From Alphaproteobacteria bacterium (GTDB lineage Bacteria; Pseudomonadota; Alphaproteobacteria; CACIAM-22H2), in contig JAFKFM010000006.1 of NCBI GenBank assembly GCA_017308135.1, positions 189,724-253,723 on the forward strand: DNA of 64,000 nt, written 5' to 3'. A program made the position numbers and the translations under genes. Position 1 is the stretch's first letter, and every line of letters begins with the position of its first letter. Positions 26,914 through 37,081 of the stretch are shown one piece after another. The notes under the pieces were generated by a model, which saw only the letters and a program-made list of their open reading frames with translations, searched no databases and had not been told where the DNA came from.

Positions 26914-28770
26914 ATGGACGGGTCGAAGGGTAAGCCGGAGGTGGATTTGGAACGTATGCGCCATTCGTGCGCGCATGTGCTGGCCGCCGCCGTCACGAAG
27001 CTTTATCCGCAAGCGAAGCTGGGCGTCGGCCCGGCGATCGCCGATGGGTTCTATTACGACATCCACACGCCCACGCCGCTGACCAGCGAAGACCTGCCGG
27101 CCATCGAAGCCGAAATGCGCCGCATCCGCGAGCGCAAGCTGCCTTTCGTGCGCGAGGAAGTGGCGATCGACGACGCGATCGGGTTCATGAAGTCGACGAA
27201 CCAGGACTACAAGGTCGAGTTGCTCGACCTTCTGAAGTCGCGCGGTTCGACGGCCGCCAAGGGTCTCGACGATCCCAATCTGTTCGAGAATCCGGCCGCG
27301 GGCGTGTCGAGCGTGTCGCTCTACAAGCTCGGCGAGTTCGTCGATCTGTGCCGGGGCCCGCATGTCGAGCATTCGGGCCAAGTGGGTGCCTTCCGCTTGA
27401 TGCGCGTGGCCGGCGCCTATTGGCGCGGCGACAACCGCAATCCGCAGCTGACGCGCGTTTACGGCACGACCTGGGCGAACGAGGCCGATCTCAAGGCCTA
27501 TCTGTTCCGCTTGGAGGAAGCCGAGAAGCGCGACCATCGCAAGCTGGGCGTGTCGATGGGCTTGTTCCACATTCAGGAAGAAGCGCCCGGCACGGTGTTC
27601 TGGCATCCCAAAGGCTGGACGCTGTTCCGCACGATCGAGCGTTACATGCGCACGAAGCTCGAAGACGACGGCTATGTCGAGGTGAAGACGCCGCAGCTCG
27701 TCGACCGCGTGTTCTGGGAAAAATCCGGCCACTGGGAGAATTATCGCGACGCGATGTTCGTGGCCAAGCCCGGCAAAGAAGGCGAAGAGGAAGACCGCCT
27801 CTACGCCATCAAGCCGATGAGCTGCCCCGGTGCCGTGCAGATTTTCCGCCACGGCCAGCGTTCCTATAAGGACCTGCCGCTGCGCATGGCGGAATTCGGC
27901 GCCTGCCATCGCTACGAGCCGTCGGGCGCGTTGCATGGCATCATGCGCGTGCGCGCCTTCACGCAGGACGACGCGCATATCTTCTGCACCGAGGATCAGA
28001 TCCCGGCAGAGTCGCAAAAGTTCTGCGACCTGCTGCGCGACATCTACAAGGATTTCGGCTTCTCGGATCTGCTCGTCAAATTCTCCGACCGGCCCGAGCA
28101 GCGCGCGGGGTCGGACGAGATTTGGGACAAGGCGGAAAGCGCCCTCGAAAAAGGTTCGACCGCCGCCGGTCTCGCCACGACGCGCAATCCGGGCGAAGGC
28201 GCGTTCTACGGGCCGAAGCTCGAATTCGTGCTGCGCGACGCGATCGGCCGCGATTGGCAATGCGGCACGTTGCAGGTCGATTTCGTGCTGCCCGAACGCC
28301 TCGACGCTTCGTATATCGGCGAGGACGGTGCGAAACATCGCCCGGTGATGCTCCACCGCGCGATCCTGGGCTCGTTCGAACGCTTCATCGGCATCCTGAT
28401 CGAGAACTACGCCGGCCGCTTGCCGACCTGGCTGTCGCCGATCCAGGCGCGGATGATTCCGATCGCCGATCGCCATGTCGATTTCGCCAAGGACGTCGCG
28501 CGCCGTTTGGCGCATATGCAGCTGCCCAACGGCGAAGGCGGCGTGCGCATCGATATCGACGCATCGACCGAGCGCATGCAGAAGAAGATCCGCAACGCGC
28601 AGATCGATCAGATCCCCTACATGCTGGTGATCGGCGACAAGGAAGCCGAAGCGGGCAAGGTCGCGCTGCGCTTGCGTTCCGGCAAGGATCTGGGCGCGGT
28701 CACGGTCGAGGAAGCGTTCGAGCGCATCGCCGCCGAAGTCGGCACGCGCGCGGATATTCCGGTCGCCTGA
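26914..28770 (+). CDS. thrS: Threonyl-tRNA synthetase lacking the N-terminal TGS domain
   Basis: A 618-aa class II synthetase that charges tRNA-Thr. It starts directly at the N2 editing domain: MRHSCAHVLAAAV (HxxxH) and LCRGPHVEHSG (CxxxH). The catalytic core has motif 1 region, the zinc Cys in PMSCPGAVQIF, motif 2 RMAEFGACHRYEPSG and motif 3 MLHRAILGSFERFIG. The C-terminal anticodon domain ends ...DIPVA. The usual 60-residue TGS domain is absent: an in-frame TAG lies 18 nt before the ATG. In E. coli that domain is dispensable for charging, so the enzyme should work. Confidence 0.96.
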   Translation: MDGSKGKPEVDLERMRHSCAHVLAAAVTKLYPQAKLGVGPAIADGFYYDIHTPTPLTSEDLPAIEAEMRRIRERKLPFVREEVAIDDAIGFMKSTNQDYKVELLDLLKSRGSTAAKGLDDPNLFENPAAGVSSVSLYKLGEFVDLCRGPHVEHSGQVGAFRLMRVAGAYWRGDNRNPQLTRVYGTTWANEADLKAYLFRLEEAEKRDHRKLGVSMGLFHIQEEAPGTVFWHPKGWTLFRTIERYMRTKLEDDGYVEVKTPQLVDRVFWEKSGHWENYRDAMFVAKPGKEGEEEDRLYAIKPMSCPGAVQIFRHGQRSYKDLPLRMAEFGACHRYEPSGALHGIMRVRAFTQDDAHIFCTEDQIPAESQKFCDLLRDIYKDFGFSDLLVKFSDRPEQRAGSDEIWDKAESALEKGSTAAGLATTRNPGEGAFYGPKLEFVLRDAIGRDWQCGTLQVDFVLPERLDASYIGEDGAKHRPVMLHRAILGSFERFIGILIENYAGRLPTWLSPIQARMIPIADRHVDFAKDVARRLAHMQLPNGEGGVRIDIDASTERMQKKIRNAQIDQIPYMLVIGDKEAEAGKVALRLRSGKDLGAVTVEEAFERIAAEVGTRADIPVA

Positions 28771-28771
28771 C

Positions 28772-28957
28772 CTAGCAGACGCCGAACCACGCGAACGCGC
28801 CGTAGCATGCCCCGGACAGCTTGTTCAGGGCGAGGAAGACGATCGCGTCGAGCAGCGTGAGTGCGGCGAGCAGCGGCACGGCGTAGCGCCACAGCGGCAC
28901 GGCGAGCGCACGCCAGGTGCGCTTGGCGGCGGGAATCGTTTTGCCGTAGACGCTCAT
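28772..28957 (-). CDS. Small single-pass membrane protein coupled to the FemAB-like gene
   Basis: A 61-aa protein of unknown family. A basic N-terminus (MSVYGKTIPAAKRTWRAL) is followed by a hydrophobic span of about 25 residues (YAVPLLAALTLLDAIVFLALN), and the C-terminus has two cysteines (GACYGAFAWFGVC). Its ATG overlaps the stop of the upstream acyltransferase gene by 4 nt (ATGA). That overlap is the main evidence that it is real. It ends 1 nt from the thrS stop. Confidence 0.68.
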   Translation of the reverse strand: MSVYGKTIPAAKRTWRALAVPLWRYAVPLLAALTLLDAIVFLALNKLSGACYGAFAWFGVC

Positions 28958-29853
28958 AGATACGTGCCCGCGAGTTCGAAGGGCGTGGCGCCCGTGCCGA
29001 GCTTGAAGCGCGCGAGGCCGGCACTGCGTTCGGTTTCGACGACGCCGAGATCGAGCGTGCGCACGCCCGATTCTTTCAACGCCAGCGCCGCGCGCCACAA
29101 CACGAGATTGGCGGCGTTGCGCTTGCGCCCGGCATCGGACGACGACGCGACGTAATAGGTCGCATCGCGCCCGTGGCGCAGGAACAACGCCCCCGCCACC
29201 GGCTCGCGCTTGTCCAGCGCCACCGCGACCAAGCATTCGCGCGCGGCTTTGAGTTCAGCAAGCCGCGACACGAACGAAGCGGGCGGCGCTTCGAAGCCCT
29301 TTTTCGCGCGCAACGCATCGGCCTGTTCGATCACCCAATCGACCCATTTGCCGCGCGGCGCCAATTCGATCCGCAGATTGGAACGCTCCGCCACGGCCAA
29401 GCGATTGCGCCATTTTTGTTTCATGCGCGCGCGCAAGCCGGCTTCGTCAGCGTCGTCGAGCCGCCACAGCGCCATCGTCGGACCGGTATGCACGCGCGCA
29501 TGACCCAACCAGCGCGCGGCGTTGGCGGGCTCGGCCGCGATTTCCGGGCCCAACAACCTTGCCGCGAAGGGCCATCCGGGTAGCGTCTTGGTGAAAATTT
29601 CGGCGGCACGCCCATCGCCGACCGGCCCGCGCAGCCCCAACCAAAGATCGAAAAATCCCAACCACCGCCGGCCGATCGCCTGCAAACAGGCGACGGGCGC
29701 GCCGTCGTCGGCCATCGCCACAAAGCGCCGCACGTCGCGCCCCTGCCAACGCGCCGCGAGGCCGTATTCCCAATCCTGCTGCAGCGGGAAAAAGGACATA
29801 CGCGCGGCAGTGTCGAACCAGGTTTGCCGGTCGGGATCGGCGATAATTTTCAT
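28954..29853 (-). CDS. FemAB/GNAT-type acyltransferase
   Basis: A 299-aa protein of the FemAB-like GNAT family. The first half (residues 1-120) is a degenerate GNAT fold; the second carries KQKWRNRLAVAERSNLRIEL, VAGALFLRHGRDATYYVASSSDAGRKRNAANLVLWRAALALKESG and LGVVETERSAGLARFKLGTG, typical of acyl-transfer from aminoacyl-tRNA or acyl-CoA to peptidoglycan, polysaccharide or lipid acceptors. The exact substrate is unknown. It is coupled to a 61-aa membrane protein downstream. Confidence 0.84.
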   Translation of the reverse strand: MKIIADPDRQTWFDTAARMSFFPLQQDWEYGLAARWQGRDVRRFVAMADDGAPVACLQAIGRRWLGFFDLWLGLRGPVGDGRAAEIFTKTLPGWPFAARLLGPEIAAEPANAARWLGHARVHTGPTMALWRLDDADEAGLRARMKQKWRNRLAVAERSNLRIELAPRGKWVDWVIEQADALRAKKGFEAPPASFVSRLAELKAARECLVAVALDKREPVAGALFLRHGRDATYYVASSSDAGRKRNAANLVLWRAALALKESGVRTLDLGVVETERSAGLARFKLGTGATPFELAGTYL

Positions 29854-29960
29854 GACAGCGGAAATTTTTCCGGAATGACAATGGCAACCGTAACACGCAG
29901 CGGCATAGAGTGTCGTGTCGCCGCAATATTTGCGTCGATTTTTGCATTCCTCCGGACGCG

Positions 29961-30947
29961 ATGCACGACCTCACGCCAACCGCCGTACCGGACACCGCCG
30001 CGCAGCTTCCCGACACCCCGCGCAAACCGGACGACAATCGCCATTTCGTTTTCGTCCATCGCGTGTTCGCAGCACCCGGCGCCGTATTCAAGCTCGACGC
30101 GAATACGGGCGAGCCCGTGCTGGCGCTCGATTTAGGCAATGTCAAAGCCTGCCTGCCCTTTCCGGCGTTGATCAAGGCGTTCGAGATCGCGCCCGATTCG
30201 CCCGATTCGCGCCAGCTCGACGCGGTGGCCAAAGGCTTGCGCCATGTGCGCCGGATCGCGCCCGGCGATTCGATTCCCGCCGAATTGCTCGACGGCTCGG
30301 CGTCGTGGAAAGTCGAGGCGCATCACGCCGCCGCCGCGCGCGGCAAATTATTCGCGGGCTTGCTCGCGGCCCTGGGCAAGCGCCCGAACGCGAAAACGCC
30401 GCGCGACTACGCGGTCTTGGCCGAAAACGCGTCGCTGCTGCCCGAACTGGCCGACGGCTACAAACTGCTGGCGGGAAAAATGGGCCTCGACGCCAAACTC
30501 GCGGGCGACGCGGAGGCGATCGTCGAAGCGCTGGCGGAGGAATTCGCCTATATCGAGGCCTTACGCGAGCGCGTGGGTTCGACGCGCGCACTCGTCGATA
30601 CGCTGCGCAACCTGCGCGACGCCTATCGCCGCGACCGATCGACGCTGGATCAAATCGCGCGCATCGTGCAATTGCTCGAACGGCCGATCGCCGCCTATGA
30701 GCGCCGGTTGCATCGGCTCGACCTCAAAATCGCCGATACGATCGACGCCGTGCTGAACATGACCCAGCGCATCGCCCTGGCGCGCGAGGTCCGCGACCGG
30801 CTGCATGCCGAAACGATGCGCTGGGACGATCTGCTGGCGCTGTGGAATGGCGGGGTATCGGCGCGCGGCCAGCGCGCCCGAATCGACGAAACCTATCGCT
30901 TCGCGGCCCGACATTTCCCCATCGCGTCCGATTGGAACGCCGCCTGA
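29961..30947 (+). CDS. Unknown-family protein, first of a tandem paralogous pair
   Basis: A 328-aa soluble protein of no family I recognise. It is mostly helical in its second half. Blocks shared with the next gene are SWKVEAHH, EEFAYIEALRERVG, ARIVQLLERPIAAYERRL, RLHAETMRWDDLLALWNG and YRFAARHFPI. The N-terminal 25 residues are Pro/Thr-rich. The start at 29961 (MHDLTP) was preferred to 29910 because it aligns with the paralogue. 66 nt separate it from the paralogue, and a degenerate hybrid kinase follows. Function unknown. Confidence 0.78.
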   Translation: MHDLTPTAVPDTAAQLPDTPRKPDDNRHFVFVHRVFAAPGAVFKLDANTGEPVLALDLGNVKACLPFPALIKAFEIAPDSPDSRQLDAVAKGLRHVRRIAPGDSIPAELLDGSASWKVEAHHAAAARGKLFAGLLAALGKRPNAKTPRDYAVLAENASLLPELADGYKLLAGKMGLDAKLAGDAEAIVEALAEEFAYIEALRERVGSTRALVDTLRNLRDAYRRDRSTLDQIARIVQLLERPIAAYERRLHRLDLKIADTIDAVLNMTQRIALAREVRDRLHAETMRWDDLLALWNGGVSARGQRARIDETYRFAARHFPIASDWNAA

Positions 30948-31013
30948 TGCGGATTCTTTAAGACGAGATTCATTTTCAAGGCGCAAATTCCGGCTCGTCC
31001 TCAGGAGCCAGAA

Positions 31014-32015
31014 ATGCCGGCCGTTTCGATCGCCGAAGAAACCGGTGCGCCGACGCCCGAAGCGGCGTTGAACCGCGCGCCCAAAACCGCCGCGGCGCCG
31101 CGCCGTTTCGAGTTCGAGCACAAAGTATTCGCCGCCCCCAAGGCGGCGTTCGAACGCGACGATTCGACGCAAGAACCGGTGTTCAGCGTCGATCTGGGCG
31201 ATCTGCGCGCGGCGATGAGCATCGACGCCGTGCGCGAGTACTTCAAAATCCCGGCCGATTCCGCCGACGGTAAGTTGCTGGCGGAAATTCCCAACGCGCT
31301 GAAATACGTGCCGGCGATCCATCCCGGCGACGCGATCCCGTCGGAACTGATCGACGGCACGGCGTCGTGGAAGGTGGAGAAGCATCACCTCGAAACCGCG
31401 CATGGCCGTATCGCCGCCGGCTTGCTCGCCTGGATCGGCGAAGGCACGAAAGCGGAAAGCGCCGTCGAGTTCGCGGCGATGGCGAGCGACCCGGCCGTCA
31501 AAACGAAAGTGCAGGCGGCGTTCTCCAAACTCGCGCAGCGCATGGGCCTGCCGGAGGAACGCAAAAGCGAGGTCGTCGACTCGGTCGAGCGGCTGGCCAC
31601 CGAGCTTTCGTATATCGAGGCGTTGCGCGAGAAGGTCGGCCAGATGCGCCGCCTGATCGATTTGTTCCGCCGCCTGCAGACCGGTTACAAGCGCGAGCGC
31701 GGCATCGCCGACAGCCTCGCGCGGGTCGTGCAATTGCTCGACAAGCCGGTGCGCCGCTACGAGCAACGTCTGGACGAGGTCGACGCGCAGACCGGCGAGA
31801 CGGCGAACACGATCCTCAATCTCGGCCGCCAGATTATCTTTGTCCGCCAGGCGCGCGACTGGCTGCATGGCGAAACCATGCGCTGGGATTCGCTGCTCGG
31901 CGCCTGGTCGGGCGAAACGATCGAACGCAATCCCGCACAGCAGCGCAAAGTCGGCGACACCTATCGCTTCGCCGCGCGTTATTTCCCCGTCGACGAGGCG
32001 TGGGCGAGCGGTTGA
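31014..32015 (+). CDS. Unknown-family protein, second of a tandem paralogous pair
   Basis: A 333-aa protein that matches the preceding one along its length: RFEFEHKVFAAP versus HFVFVHRVFAAP, SWKVEKHH, TELSYIEALREKVG, RVVQLLDKPVRRYEQRL, WLHGETMRWDSLLGAWSG and YRFAARYFPV. No signal peptide or membrane segment is present. A long central helical region (about residues 190-300) may form a coiled coil. AGGAG about 7 nt upstream supports the ATG at 31014. The hybrid kinase ATG lies 46 nt after its stop, so the three genes look like one transcription unit. Confidence 0.8.
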   Translation: MPAVSIAEETGAPTPEAALNRAPKTAAAPRRFEFEHKVFAAPKAAFERDDSTQEPVFSVDLGDLRAAMSIDAVREYFKIPADSADGKLLAEIPNALKYVPAIHPGDAIPSELIDGTASWKVEKHHLETAHGRIAAGLLAWIGEGTKAESAVEFAAMASDPAVKTKVQAAFSKLAQRMGLPEERKSEVVDSVERLATELSYIEALREKVGQMRRLIDLFRRLQTGYKRERGIADSLARVVQLLDKPVRRYEQRLDEVDAQTGETANTILNLGRQIIFVRQARDWLHGETMRWDSLLGAWSGETIERNPAQQRKVGDTYRFAARYFPVDEAWASG

Positions 32016-32061
32016 GGCGGCGCGTACGCCAAGGCATAGTCCCGGGCGGAACAGCCGCTTC

Positions 32062-34332
32062 ATGCAAACGCCCTCGACGCCCCGCATAAAACCCGTCACC
32101 GCCAAAGCGCGAAGCTGGCTCGCCATGGCCGCCGCATGCGCGTGCCTGTCGGTCGCCGTGGGCCTGGCGGCCATTCAACGCGGCAACGACACGCTGGAGG
32201 AGTTCGACGGCGCGGGTTTGGCGTCGATCTTCGGTTTGCAAACCGTCGCACGCGCCTATTCGCTGGAGGCGCTGGAAGCGTTGAACGGTGCCGCGACAAG
32301 CCGGATGGGTTTCGATTCCGCCGGCTATTCGTTACAGGCCGCGCGCGCGCGCGCCGCGTCGGCGTGGTCCGCGTATCGATCGGCGCTGACCCGGGTTTCC
32401 GGCCCCGAACGCGCCCTGGCGGGCGAGATCGACGTGCTGATCTTGCGGATGGAAGGGGCACTCGACCAAGCGGTGCTGATTCTGGGCACCGGCGATCGCG
32501 ACGCGATCAGCGATTTCCTGCGCCGGGATGTGCGCTTGCGGGCCGTGCCGCTGGCCGTGGCGCTGGATCGCGCGGTCGAGTTGCGCCGTGCCCAGCTCGA
32601 CGCGACGCTGGCCGACGCGCGGGCGATGCGCTTGGAATTCAGCGCGGCGCTGGCGCTGCTTTTGCTCGCGACCGGATTCGCGGGCTGGATGGCGCGCCGC
32701 GCGATGATCGAAGACGTCGAGAAGCCGCTGGGCGCGCTGGCCGCGAAAGCGGGCGAATTGCTGTTGTTGCCCCCGCCCGGGCGCGACGACGATGCGCGCA
32801 CCCGCCTGGCGGCGGCCTACGCCGCGATGGGCGACGACGCCGCCGCGCGCGCGCGCGACGAACAGGCCGCCGCCGCCGCGCGGCGCGCGAAATCGTCCTA
32901 CCTCGCCGCGATGCGCCAGCGCGTGCGCACGCCGCTGCATGCGCTGCTGGGCTTGGTCGAGATCGACGCGGCGACGCGCGCGCGCGGCGGTTCGCCCGCG
33001 GGTTTGCGCGATTTGCGCCGCACGGCGGAAAACCTGATGGCGGTCGTCGACGATCTGATCGATTTCGCGCGCATCGACGCGGCGTCGATGTCGGTCGATC
33101 TGCGCGCGACCGACGCCGGCGATTTGCTGGAGCGTGTGGCGCTCAATCTCGCCGGCCATGCCGACGCGAAAGGATTGACGCTGTCGTGCTTCGTCGATCC
33201 GGAGATCGTCGAGCGCTACAAGATCGATCCGCTGCGCGTGCGCCAGATCCTGTTCAATTTGATCGGCGACGCGATCGGGCGCGCGACGCAAGGCGGGGTG
33301 CATGCGCGCCTGTCGCTGGGCGATGGCGCGCTGATTTTCGCCGTCGCCGATTCCGGCCCGGCTTTGCCGCACGCGGCGATCGCGGCGTTGCTGGATTTGA
33401 GCGGCACGCAGAACAGGGATTTCGCCGCGCCGCCGGGCAGTCCCGGCCTGCCGGTTTGCCGGTTGTTGGCCGCGCGCATTGGCGGGCGATTGCGCGCGAC
33501 CGCGCATGCCGACGGCACCACGAGTTTCGTGCTGGAATTGCCGGCCGAACCCGCGGGCGGCGCGTTGCGGCCCTTGCCGCCGGGCAACGCGCTGGCCGGG
33601 TATCGCGTCGCGGTGCTGGGCGAGAGCGGGCCGATGCATGCGGCGGTCGCCGCTTATCTGATCGCGGCGGGTGCGACGCTCGTCACCGACCGGCGCGACG
33701 CCGATCTATGCGTCGCCTTGCCCGGCACCCATGATTTCGGCGGCGGGGCGGGCAAGCGCTTGCGGCTGCACATCGCCGCCCCGCTGATCGCCGACGACGA
33801 CGCGGATGCGGGCGCCACGATTCTGCGCCGGGCCGCGATCGTCGCGGGCGCGATGCGCGCGCTCGGGCTCGCCAGCGCGCCGCAGGACGACGAAGACCCG
33901 GTGTTCCAAACGCCGCCCGCAGCACCATCGCGCGAGGAAGCGCTGGCGCAAGGAAGGCTTATTCTGGCGATCGACGACGATCCGGTGACGCGCGACGTGC
34001 TGGTGCGCCGGCTGGAACTTTCGGGCTATCGCGTCGATGCCGCGTCGTGCGGCGAAGAAGCCTGGACGATGTGGCGCGCGGCCCCCTATGGGCTGATCGT
34101 CGCGGAATTGCATTTGTCCGATCTCGACGCGCGCGCGCTGGCGGCGCGCATTCGCGCGGCCGAAGTCGAAACCGCGCGGCCGCGCACGCCGATCGTCGCC
34201 TTGTCGGCGACCGCCGATACCGACGAGATCGAGACCTGCCATGCGGCGGGTATGGACGCGCTGCTGGACAAGCCGCTCGCCTGGCGCGGCTTGGTCGAAG
34301 CCGCACGGCGCCATTTGCGCGAAAAAGCGTGA
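32062..34332 (+). CDS. Degenerate hybrid sensor histidine kinase (pseudokinase with mutated receiver)
   Basis: A 756-aa membrane protein with two transmembrane segments (about residues 18-38 and 195-215) flanking a periplasmic helical domain, then HisKA-, HATPase- and receiver-like domains. The H-box reads MRQRVRTPL, so the phospho-acceptor His is Gln286. The N-box has Asp403 in place of the key Asn (FNLIGDAIG), G1 is DSGPAL, and the G2 loop is SPGLPV. The receiver keeps AIDDDP and the LDKPL lysine, but the phospho-acceptor position is Glu682 (VAELHLS). The frame is intact and 2.3 kb long. It probably signals without phosphotransfer. Confidence 0.88.
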   Translation: MQTPSTPRIKPVTAKARSWLAMAAACACLSVAVGLAAIQRGNDTLEEFDGAGLASIFGLQTVARAYSLEALEALNGAATSRMGFDSAGYSLQAARARAASAWSAYRSALTRVSGPERALAGEIDVLILRMEGALDQAVLILGTGDRDAISDFLRRDVRLRAVPLAVALDRAVELRRAQLDATLADARAMRLEFSAALALLLLATGFAGWMARRAMIEDVEKPLGALAAKAGELLLLPPPGRDDDARTRLAAAYAAMGDDAAARARDEQAAAAARRAKSSYLAAMRQRVRTPLHALLGLVEIDAATRARGGSPAGLRDLRRTAENLMAVVDDLIDFARIDAASMSVDLRATDAGDLLERVALNLAGHADAKGLTLSCFVDPEIVERYKIDPLRVRQILFNLIGDAIGRATQGGVHARLSLGDGALIFAVADSGPALPHAAIAALLDLSGTQNRDFAAPPGSPGLPVCRLLAARIGGRLRATAHADGTTSFVLELPAEPAGGALRPLPPGNALAGYRVAVLGESGPMHAAVAAYLIAAGATLVTDRRDADLCVALPGTHDFGGGAGKRLRLHIAAPLIADDDADAGATILRRAAIVAGAMRALGLASAPQDDEDPVFQTPPAAPSREEALAQGRLILAIDDDPVTRDVLVRRLELSGYRVDAASCGEEAWTMWRAAPYGLIVAELHLSDLDARALAARIRAAEVETARPRTPIVALSATADTDEIETCHAAGMDALLDKPLAWRGLVEAARRHLREKA

Positions 34333-34339
34333 CGCGGGT

Positions 34340-34903
34340 TTAGACGCGGCGCGTGGGCGGGCCCAAGCGGCGCTTTTCGACCACGAAGCTGCGCGGCGCC
34401 GATGCGGCCGGACGCGGGGCACGCGGCGCCGAAGCGTAAAGCGGGCGCGGCGGCGCTTCCAATTCCGAGGTGTCGAAACCGCCGGCACGGGGGGCACGCG
34501 CGGCGCGCACGGCCGGAGCTTCGCCATCGCCGAAGCTGGGCGGCGCGAAATTGCCGGGACCCATCAATTTGCGCGGCGCGGGGCCCGCGCGGCGGCGCGC
34601 CGGACGCGCGGCCTTGGTCTTGGGCTTCACGTCGGCCAGGCGCACTTCGATGCGCCGTTCCGAAACCGTGCTGCCGTCCAATGCCTCGATCGCGGCCTTG
34701 CAATGCTTTTCATGCGCCATGGTGACGAAGCCATAACCGATCGCCTTGCCCGAGGCGGGATCGGTCGGCACCGAGGCTTCGATCACGATTCCGTAGCTGT
34801 CGAACAAATCGGCCAGCCGTTCGGCGGTAAAGTCGAACGGCACGTTCCCGACGAAAAGCCGCGTGTTGTACAGCTTCGGTTGCGGGAGGGGGGACTTGTC
34901 CAT
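34340..34903 (-). CDS. RNA-recognition-motif (RRM) protein with basic tail
   Basis: A 187-aa single-RRM RNA-binding protein. RNP2 is RLFVGNVPFDF near residue 15 and RNP1 is AIGYGFVTMA near residue 54, both with the aromatic residues for RNA stacking. The C-terminal 95 residues are Ala/Pro/Arg-rich and probably disordered. Bacterial proteins of this type resemble cold-shock-type RRM proteins of cyanobacteria; the target RNAs are unknown. The gene ends 7 nt from the pseudokinase stop. The 259 nt upstream, to the next gene, show no ORF of note. Confidence 0.88.
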   Translation of the reverse strand: MDKSPLPQPKLYNTRLFVGNVPFDFTAERLADLFDSYGIVIEASVPTDPASGKAIGYGFVTMAHEKHCKAAIEALDGSTVSERRIEVRLADVKPKTKAARPARRRAGPAPRKLMGPGNFAPPSFGDGEAPAVRAARAPRAGGFDTSELEAPPRPLYASAPRAPRPAASAPRSFVVEKRRLGPPTRRV

Positions 34904-35162
34904 AACGCTTGGTTTCTTTCAGGAACGCGGTAACCCGATAACGGGGCCGCTTTTGATTTGTAAATTCAACGCCACGTGCATTTTTCCATAATTGGCGCCG
35001 GGAAGACCCGTGCCATTCGCGCATAGCGGCACGCCGGATTTCGATGCCGCCTTGCGGAGACAACGCAAAGTTAGAGAAAGAATGTGCAAAACCCGTGACA
35101 GGTCCGGGGCGCGGGCAAGGTAATCCGCCCTGCCCGTCACCTGAGCCCGCAACCGGAATTCT

Positions 35163-35447
35163 TCAGGCGGCGATGTCGAGCAGCTGGCCGCGACCGGATG
35201 CCGCAGGCGGCGGGGGCGTGGCCGAACCGCCCGACGCGGTCTGCGAAACGCTGTTCGACTGGATGGACTGGCCGCCGACCGACGACTGCGCGCCCGAGGC
35301 CGAAGCGGCACCCGCAGCACCCGAGGCCACAGCGGTGGCGGTCGTGCCGGTTTCGCCTTCGCCGCCGGCTTGCGCGCCGCCGCCCGAAGACCGCAGCGCG
35401 GTGAGATCGGCGTAGCTGTTCGAGGCGGACGAGATGCTCAGCGACAT
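35163..35447 (-). CDS. Small low-complexity protein of unknown function
   Basis: A 94-aa protein rich in Ser, Gly and Ala, with no Cys, Trp or membrane segment. A short defined start (MSLSISSASNSYADLTALRSSGGG) is followed by a repetitive middle and PPPPAASGRGQLLDIAA. A GGAG Shine-Dalgarno lies about 7 nt before the ATG, which supports translation. The composition recalls short flagellar- or surface-associated proteins of alphaproteobacteria, but I cannot assign it. The 200 nt to the aldolase gene on the other strand hold no other ORF I trust. Confidence 0.5.
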   Translation of the reverse strand: MSLSISSASNSYADLTALRSSGGGAQAGGEGETGTTATAVASGAAGAASASGAQSSVGGQSIQSNSVSQTASGGSATPPPPAASGRGQLLDIAA

Positions 35448-35648
35448 GATCTTGGCTCCAACGCGGATTGATTCGTTGCGATGGCGCGATTAAGCGCGTG
35501 CTGGCTTAATGCCGAGTGAAGATCGCGCGCGGCTTGAACATGGCGCGCATGCGCGCCGCGCGACGTTCGGGCTTTGCCGAAAATCCGCGACGAAAGCCGA
35601 TAAAATCCCGTCGCAATATGCGACGCTGTTCCGCGAGGGAGGTCCTGA

Positions 35649-36377
35649 ATGTCCGCAACGAGTTTCGCCAATGCCCGTGCCGATCTTGCCTGCGCGCTGC
35701 GTTGGGCCGCGCGCCTCGGCCTCAACGAAGGGACCTGCAATCATTTCAGCCTTCAGGTCGCCGAAGATCGCTTTTTGGTGAATCCCTGGGGCCCGCATTG
35801 GCGGGAAATGAAAGCCTCCGACCTGCTGCTGATCGACGGCACGGGCAAGGTGCTGGAAGGCGCTTGGCCGCTGGAGGAAACGGCGCTGCATATCCACACG
35901 CGCATCCATCTGCGCCATCCGCATGCGACCGCCGTGTTCCACACGCATATGCCTTACGCGACGGCGCTCTGTTCGATCGAGAACGGGCGTTTGGAACCGT
36001 GCGTGCAGACGGCGCTGAAATTCTTCGGCCGCATCGCCTATGACGACGATTACAACGGCCTGGCCTGCGACGCCGCCGAAGGCGATCGGATGGCCGCGAA
36101 GATGGACGGCAAGCCCGTGCTGTTCCTCGCCAATCACGGCGTGATCGTCACGGCGCCCGATGTCGCGCAAGCCTTCGACCGGCTTTACTACCTCGAGCGC
36201 GCGGCGCAAGCGCAAGTGCTGGCGATGTCGACCGGGCGGCCCTTGAAGCTCGTGCCGGGGCAAATCGCCGAGCGCACGGTGCGCGAAATGGATGCCGGCA
36301 ACGCGGCCTATGCGCGCGTGCATTTCGCGGCGCTCGCCCGCATGCTGGCGCGCGAGGAACCCGAATATCTCGGCTAA
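35649..36377 (+). CDS. Class II aldolase/adducin-family protein
   Basis: A 242-aa zinc-dependent aldolase-fold protein. It has NEGTCNHFSL, the metal-ligand HTHMPYATAL, catalytic-region LFLANHGVIVTAP and an acidic residue in the E-T-A-L-H-I-H segment. The family includes fuculose/rhamnulose-1-phosphate aldolases and decarboxylases; the substrate is not predictable. A strong GGGAGGT Shine-Dalgarno precedes the ATG at 35649. Its stop overlaps that of the convergent Crp/Fnr gene by 4 nt. Confidence 0.9.
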   Translation: MSATSFANARADLACALRWAARLGLNEGTCNHFSLQVAEDRFLVNPWGPHWREMKASDLLLIDGTGKVLEGAWPLEETALHIHTRIHLRHPHATAVFHTHMPYATALCSIENGRLEPCVQTALKFFGRIAYDDDYNGLACDAAEGDRMAAKMDGKPVLFLANHGVIVTAPDVAQAFDRLYYLERAAQAQVLAMSTGRPLKLVPGQIAERTVREMDAGNAAYARVHFAALARMLAREEPEYLG

Positions 36378-37081
36378 GCCGTCTTGAATTCGCGGACCAT
36401 CGCTTTGAGACGCGACGGGGCCGCGATCGTCAAACCGCCGCCTTCCTTCACCACGATGTTCTTGCGCGCAAGCTCCGAAAAAACCCGCGCCACCGTTTCG
36501 CGCGTCGTCGAAACGCGCGCGGCGATATCGCCATGCACGGGGATCGGCTTGATGACGAGCTTGCCCGAGACCGGTTTGGCGAGGCGCAGGATTTCGGCGT
36601 AGACGCGGTTATGCGCACCCAGCGTCGAGAGATCGAGAATGCGCGTCGTGGCGACGCGCACCATCGCCGCCATCCGGCGCAGCAAGGCGAGCGTGGCGGC
36701 GGGGGCGGTCACCGCGACGTCGAGAAGAACCTGGCGCGGCAGAATGGCGCAGAGCGTTTGCTCCAACGCTTCGACCGAAGCCGAACGCGGGCCGCCATCG
36801 ATCGCCGCGAGTTCGCCCACGCAGCCGCCCGGCCCCATTTCGTCGAACGCCACTTCGCGGCCCGATTCCGAATGGATGACCACGCGCACCGATCCCGCCA
36901 CGACGAAATACACGTCCGTCTCCGGCGCTTCGCGGTCGATGACGCTCGCCCCCTTCGGAAACTCGCGCCAGCGGCAGCGCGCTTCGATCGCGGCGCGCTG
37001 GGCGGCCGTCAACGCCGCGAACAGGTCGATTTTCGCCAGACTGCGCGCCGCACCGGTCGGACCGGATTTACCCTTCGCCAT
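36374..37081 (-). CDS. Crp/Fnr-family transcriptional regulator
   Basis: A 235-aa regulator. The cyclic-nucleotide-binding domain (about residues 20-140) has VYFVVAGSVRVVI and GPGGCVGELAAIDGGPRSASVEAL, where GEL..RSA is the phosphate-binding cassette pattern, so a nucleotide ligand is likely. The HTH (about 170-225) reads HGDIAARVSTTRETVARVFSELARKNIV. There is no N-terminal cysteine set of Fnr. It diverges from the MaoC gene (92-nt gap) and is convergent with the aldolase gene. Confidence 0.92.
   Translation of the reverse strand: MAKGKSGPTGAARSLAKIDLFAALTAAQRAAIEARCRWREFPKGASVIDREAPETDVYFVVAGSVRVVIHSESGREVAFDEMGPGGCVGELAAIDGGPRSASVEALEQTLCAILPRQVLLDVAVTAPAATLALLRRMAAMVRVATTRILDLSTLGAHNRVYAEILRLAKPVSGKLVIKPIPVHGDIAARVSTTRETVARVFSELARKNIVVKEGGGLTIAAPSRLKAMVREFKTA

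Follow-up and report, generated by a model that had tools for sequence, protein, structure and literature searches.

The plus-strand frame at positions 32062..34332 of the window (the whole 64,000-nucleotide stretch of DNA analyzed) codes for a pseudo-hybrid histidine kinase of 756 residues, followed by a stop codon, and is under purifying selection with an omega (dN/dS) of 0.19. We lean slightly toward the view that the product is a membrane-anchored, non-catalytic protein whose mode of action is to dock to another kinase or to a regulator, as DivL does or as RetS does in its autophosphorylation-blocking mode. Rather more tentatively, it may represent a hybrid whose transmitter and receiver are both permanently phosphate-free, selected as a membrane sensor working by conformation and docking only, with living intermediates in sister species. 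The initial annotation considered signaling by conformation alone to be new, but this is already how DivL (PMC4211667) and RetS in its third mechanism (PMC5992135) operate; the non-catalytic concept is thus not new, and the variation here lies in one hybrid having lost both its transmitter and its receiver sites.

By fold, the product belongs with the hybrid histidine kinases: a single chain carries HisKA, HATPase_c, and Response_reg domains, all encoded on the plus strand. Each scores above its Pfam cutoff (26.9, 26.4, and 30.2 bits, respectively), HisKA by a small margin, and these are the HisKA dimerization domain (PF00512, 29.7 bits; amino acids 277-340, 32890..33081), a degenerate HATPase_c domain (PF02518, 38.2 bits; amino acids 389-496, 33226..33549), and the receiver (PF00072, 60.5 bits; amino acids 634-748, 33961..34305). 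Between the ATPase domain and the receiver is a degenerate first receiver-like stretch, pseudo-REC1 (33595..33891, limits approximate), recognized by alignment with hybrid kinases and by the structural match to ShkA, and additional to the losses initially listed. The N-terminal part includes a membrane anchor and a periplasmic helical sensor region (32125..32739, limits approximate), with TM1 at about amino acids 22-42, intervening helices, and TM2 at about amino acids 207-226, as read from hydrophobic stretches in the sequence and AlphaFold2 helices; comparison of the periplasmic part with PDB sequences gave no match and identified no known sensor domain. The AlphaFold2 model (mean pLDDT 77, pTM 0.50) shows four long membrane/periplasmic helices and a helical core; its receiver is well defined and the lid of its ATPase-like domain poorly defined. 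Its closest solved structures are ShkA, the best match, followed by RetS, HK853, and GacS, with DivL within the top 50.

The residues expected of an active hybrid histidine kinase are absent. In the degenerate H-box, MRQRVRTPL (32911..32937), codon 286 (32917-32919) is CAG and specifies Gln in place of the phospho-acceptor His, and codon 287 is CGC (Arg). The N-box Asn is replaced by Asp at codon 403 (33268..33270; GAC here, AAC in the orthologue G010), the G1 box reads DSGPAL in the alignment (33349..33366), and the G2 region reads GSPGLPV (33436..33456; SPGLPV in the initial annotation), three residues shorter than the GATGLGLPV of G010, the least degenerate orthologue. In the receiver, the phospho-acceptor Asp is replaced by Glu at codon 682 (34105..34107; GAA here, GAT in G010). 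All four of these changes had been noted in the initial annotation and are confirmed. Alignment with 26 other hybrid kinases reveals further losses, as in all four orthologues the acidic H+1 residue is Arg, the N-box Lys is Gly, and the F-box/ATP-lid motif is missing. The HExxT phosphatase motif reads QRVRT, with only the Thr remaining, and the Gly of the receiver MDG motif is Ala in all three pseudokinase orthologues (the host genome G000, G001, and G009). All four orthologues retain the H-box residues Thr290 and Pro291 and the G1 residue Asp430, and the G000 receiver retains Asp638, Asp639, Ser715, and Lys737. Judging from its residues, the protein is a pseudo-histidine kinase, having the kinase fold minus the catalytic residues, and it cannot plausibly autophosphorylate or relay phosphate; with Glu682 in a Response_reg domain lacking a phosphorylatable Asp, it also contains a pseudo-receiver.

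Of the 11 genus genomes searched, four have an orthologue, namely the host (G000) and three other species (G001, G009, and G010); none was found in the other seven or outside the genus, where the order-level search covered the same 23 genomes as the family-level search. The frame is 756 residues in G000, G001, and G009, with no stops or frameshifts, and the start ATG is the same in all three. A separate assembly, 92% identical (L009/L038), has the same Gln, Asp, and Glu, a third assembly (L010/L039) has the same Asp and Glu, and a 74%-identical orthologue carries His at position 286. Conservation of the substitutions, a check suggested in the initial annotation, is seen for Asp403 and Glu682, which are common to three of the four orthologues, but not for Gln286, which is confined to G000 and G001. 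G009 retains the His, together with the N-box Asp and the receiver Glu, and has Ala at the metal-binding Asp639. G010 retains the His, Asn, Asp, and GLGL residues, and already has Arg at H+1 and no F-box. Intact orthologues beside a frameshift in this gene had been suggested as a sign of a decaying or ordinary kinase; a less degenerate orthologue does exist, but the frameshift does not. The G010 protein (L011) has two close membrane helices but not the periplasmic sensor region seen in the other three, and thus the input is not conserved across the orthologue family.

The gene tree, (G010,(G009,(G000,G001))), is fully supported, is joined to other hybrids by a long stem, and can be read as a stepwise loss. 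The H+1 Glu would have changed to Arg on the stem, with loss of the F-box, the N-box Lys, and the second G1 glycine; Asn403 to Asp, receiver Asp to Glu, and shortening of G2 would have followed in the ancestor of G009, G000, and G001; and His would have become Gln by a single base change (CAT or CAC to CAG) on the G000/G001 branch.

The kinase may be part of a recurring gene neighborhood. The order thrS-FemAB-like-PA-PB-kinase-RRM is shared by G000, G001 (in which PA is broken), and G009, and the G010 locus reads thrS-FemAB-like-PB-kinase, with the RRM gene not seen. PB (31014..32015, plus strand), directly upstream of the kinase in the window, adjoins it in all four orthologous loci and is a possible functional partner; PA (29910-30947 in the window) is its tandem paralogue. 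The PA/PB family has no Pfam or NCBIfam match, PB-family genes were found in 37 of 240 genomes sampled from the class, and the PB AlphaFold2 model is confident, with no PDB match at an E value of 0.001. We note that PA in G001 (L044:9013-9483) is internally deleted or frameshifted, with PB and the pseudokinase intact; that PB-family genes adjoin hybrid kinases in G004, G005, and G008 with a pentapeptide-repeat gene between them; and that in G006-G008 a pentapeptide-repeat gene occupies the kinase slot at the thrS locus (L158, L164, L165, and L148-L150 for these two observations). Comparison of window positions 26914-37081 with L042-L044 gives dS values to G009 of about 0.8-1.2 in PA, PB, and the kinase versus 0.3-0.7 in the flanking genes, and the kinase is unusually close to that of G001, such that exchange of a segment between species is possible.

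Such extensive loss is unusual. HisKA domains without the His make up 0.9% and receivers without the Asp 2.0% (PMC12632262), and among 56 kinase-like frames at the loci fetched for 60 ATPase-domain matches of the host genome, only the 32062-34332 frame has the whole set of losses (0 of the 55 others). The one other clear phospho-acceptor loss in this survey is the DivL-like L099, with Tyr in place of His. Plasmid relatives are generic hybrid kinases, none of which covers 80% of the query. Separately, a hybrid kinase of a different alphaproteobacterial family (L036:781-2682, minus strand) has Gln and Lys in place of the H-box His-Glu with its N-box, GLGL, and receiver Asp intact, an independent loss of the phospho-acceptor His.

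Purifying selection acts on the pseudokinase, but it is relaxed, the gene being kept under loosened rules. Whole-gene omega is 0.19 against both G001 (bootstrap 0.15-0.28) and G009, with omega = 1 rejected in each case (2 delta lnL of 92 and 206, respectively). Since G000 and G001 both carry all of the losses, their contrast measures selection after the losses occurred. In the kinase core, omega is 0.148 for G000 versus G001 (bootstrap 0.07-0.27) and 0.177 for G000 versus G009; in the receiver, it is 0.114 for G000 versus G009. For the same genome pairs, three intact hybrid kinases have a core omega of 0.014-0.07 and a DivL-like pseudokinase one of 0.016-0.026, and the looser core constraint of the pseudokinase held when the comparison was widened from one intact control to the full set. 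The initial annotation took the open 756-residue frame as an argument for selection rather than decay. The omega value supports selection, but the frame itself is weak evidence and was dismissed as proof, because neutral simulations (ignoring indels) in this GC-rich genome left it open in 6.4% and 1.2% of runs at the G001 and G009 distances.

These values are also relevant to whether the kinase is simply on its way out, through stepwise loss under relaxed constraint, with the purifying signal a residue of recent selection or of misfolding avoidance. We regard this as rather unlikely, although it accounts for the core omega of 0.15-0.18 relative to both control classes, for the further losses that differ between lineages (His to Gln in G000 and G001, Asp639 to Ala in G009), for the broken PA gene adjoining it in G001, and for the restriction to four of 11 genus genomes. 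It sits poorly, however, with a whole-gene omega of 0.19 and no stop or frameshift between two orthologues that are both fully degenerate, and with the retention of the Asn-to-Asp and Asp-to-Glu substitutions in three species at a dS of about 0.84.

The initial annotation proposed that Glu682 is a permanent phospho-mimic and that the protein signals via a locked-on receiver. The Glu is retained in three species, the receiver omega is 0.09-0.16 among the three pseudokinase orthologues, and Asp638, Asp639, Ser715, and Lys737 are still present in G000. However, a hybrid-kinase receiver usually hands its phosphate on rather than driving an output domain, and the MDG Gly has been replaced by Ala in all three. 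Glu, the most frequent substitute in pseudo-receivers, is able to mimic phosphate, but replacing the residue was without effect in some of those tested (PMC12632262). We consider the mimic improbable, as the idea failed in these cases and the Glu of G009 has outlived its metal-binding Asp639. Still less probable is a residual activity, either as a transmitter phosphatase or as a weak nucleotide-dependent switch directed at a regulator that serves as partner; the conserved Thr290, Pro291, and Asp430 in all four orthologues fit with this, as does the finding that the conserved His is not strictly required for HisKA phosphatase activity (PMC12632262), but the acidic H+1 residue of HExxT is Arg in all four, and the N-box Asn and Lys, the F-box, and G2 are gone. 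That the frame is an artifact of sequencing or assembly, or is open by chance in GC-rich DNA (many long spurious frames are present on both strands of the window), has almost no probability and is refuted by substitutions common to independent assemblies, an omega far below 1, and significant matches to three kinase domains.

The docking reading draws on several known systems. DivL, in Caulobacter and other Alphaproteobacteria, similarly has a kinase fold without the phospho-acceptor His, binds ATP very poorly, is retained by selection, and works by docking, and its dead core can read a phosphorylated regulator (PMC4211667). It has PAS domains and no receiver, whereas the pseudokinase has a periplasmic helical sensor, a dead receiver, and weaker constraint; nor is the pseudokinase DivL itself, which has Tyr at the His site, the position occupied here by Gln and in L099, a separate gene, by Tyr. 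RetS of Pseudomonas aeruginosa is likewise a membrane hybrid kinase with a degenerate ATPase domain, ranks near the top of the solved structures in both fold and profile comparisons, and restrains GacS in three ways (PMC5992135). RetS, however, keeps the H-box His, HExxT, and a working receiver Asp, of which only Thr290 is left here, and the protein is thus not of the RetS type. The RetS phosphate sink depends on a receiver Asp that is missing here, which excludes this mode at the residue level, and the transmitter phosphatase uses HExxT, where the Thr alone survives. The third mode, interference with partner autophosphorylation, is favored as the only one requiring none of the lost residues, and selection may still protect the surfaces for it. 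A catalytically dead ChrS variant of Corynebacterium glutamicum acts by pairing with a paralogue in a mixed dimer (PMC9491836), although that variant arose by frameshift in laboratory evolution and the pseudokinase is a natural, long-kept gene. Together, the RetS, DivL, and ChrS-variant precedents favor docking or mixed dimers. ShkA of Caulobacter (PDB 6qrj; PMC7010744), the best structural match, has the same HisKA-HATPase-pseudo-receiver-receiver order but is catalytically active, with c-di-GMP as its switch. Pseudo-receivers in which Glu replaces Asp share the fold and the substitution (PMC12632262); in the present hybrid, such a domain is fused to a dead kinase.

We thus envisage descent from a working hybrid kinase whose productive ATP binding, autophosphorylation, and receiver phosphorylation would have been lost with the residues, and whose fold is still maintained under the weakened purifying selection. 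A signal at the periplasmic helices could change the conformation of the helical core, which would dock to another histidine kinase, pair with one in a mixed dimer, or capture a response regulator, and so tune the activity of the bound partner. Our best guess for this partner is the soluble PAS-HisKA-HATPase-REC-REC-Hpt kinase of the host genome (L003/L144), a candidate by relatedness only, as Hpt-domain kinases are among the closest relatives of the G010 form within the genus. Against docking is the core constraint, which is looser by several fold than that of the DivL-like protein encoded in these genomes and suits slow decay too. The seven genus genomes in which no orthologue was found and the missing sensor region of G010 also count against it, and residues by themselves are no proof that activity is gone.

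Conversion of catalytic to non-catalytic two-component proteins has so far been known from a few end points, such as DivL and RetS, and the main interest of the pseudokinase is in its visible intermediates. Successive stages are seen at one locus in one genus, with H+1 Glu, the F-box, and G1 lost first, the N-box Asn, G2, and the receiver Asp second, and the phospho-acceptor His last. With three or four natural proteins to compare, this order allows direct tests of the point at which catalysis ends and of what is still under selective protection. The membrane sensor of this Tagaea-like host probably works by binding other signaling proteins, as a few known "dead" kinases do.
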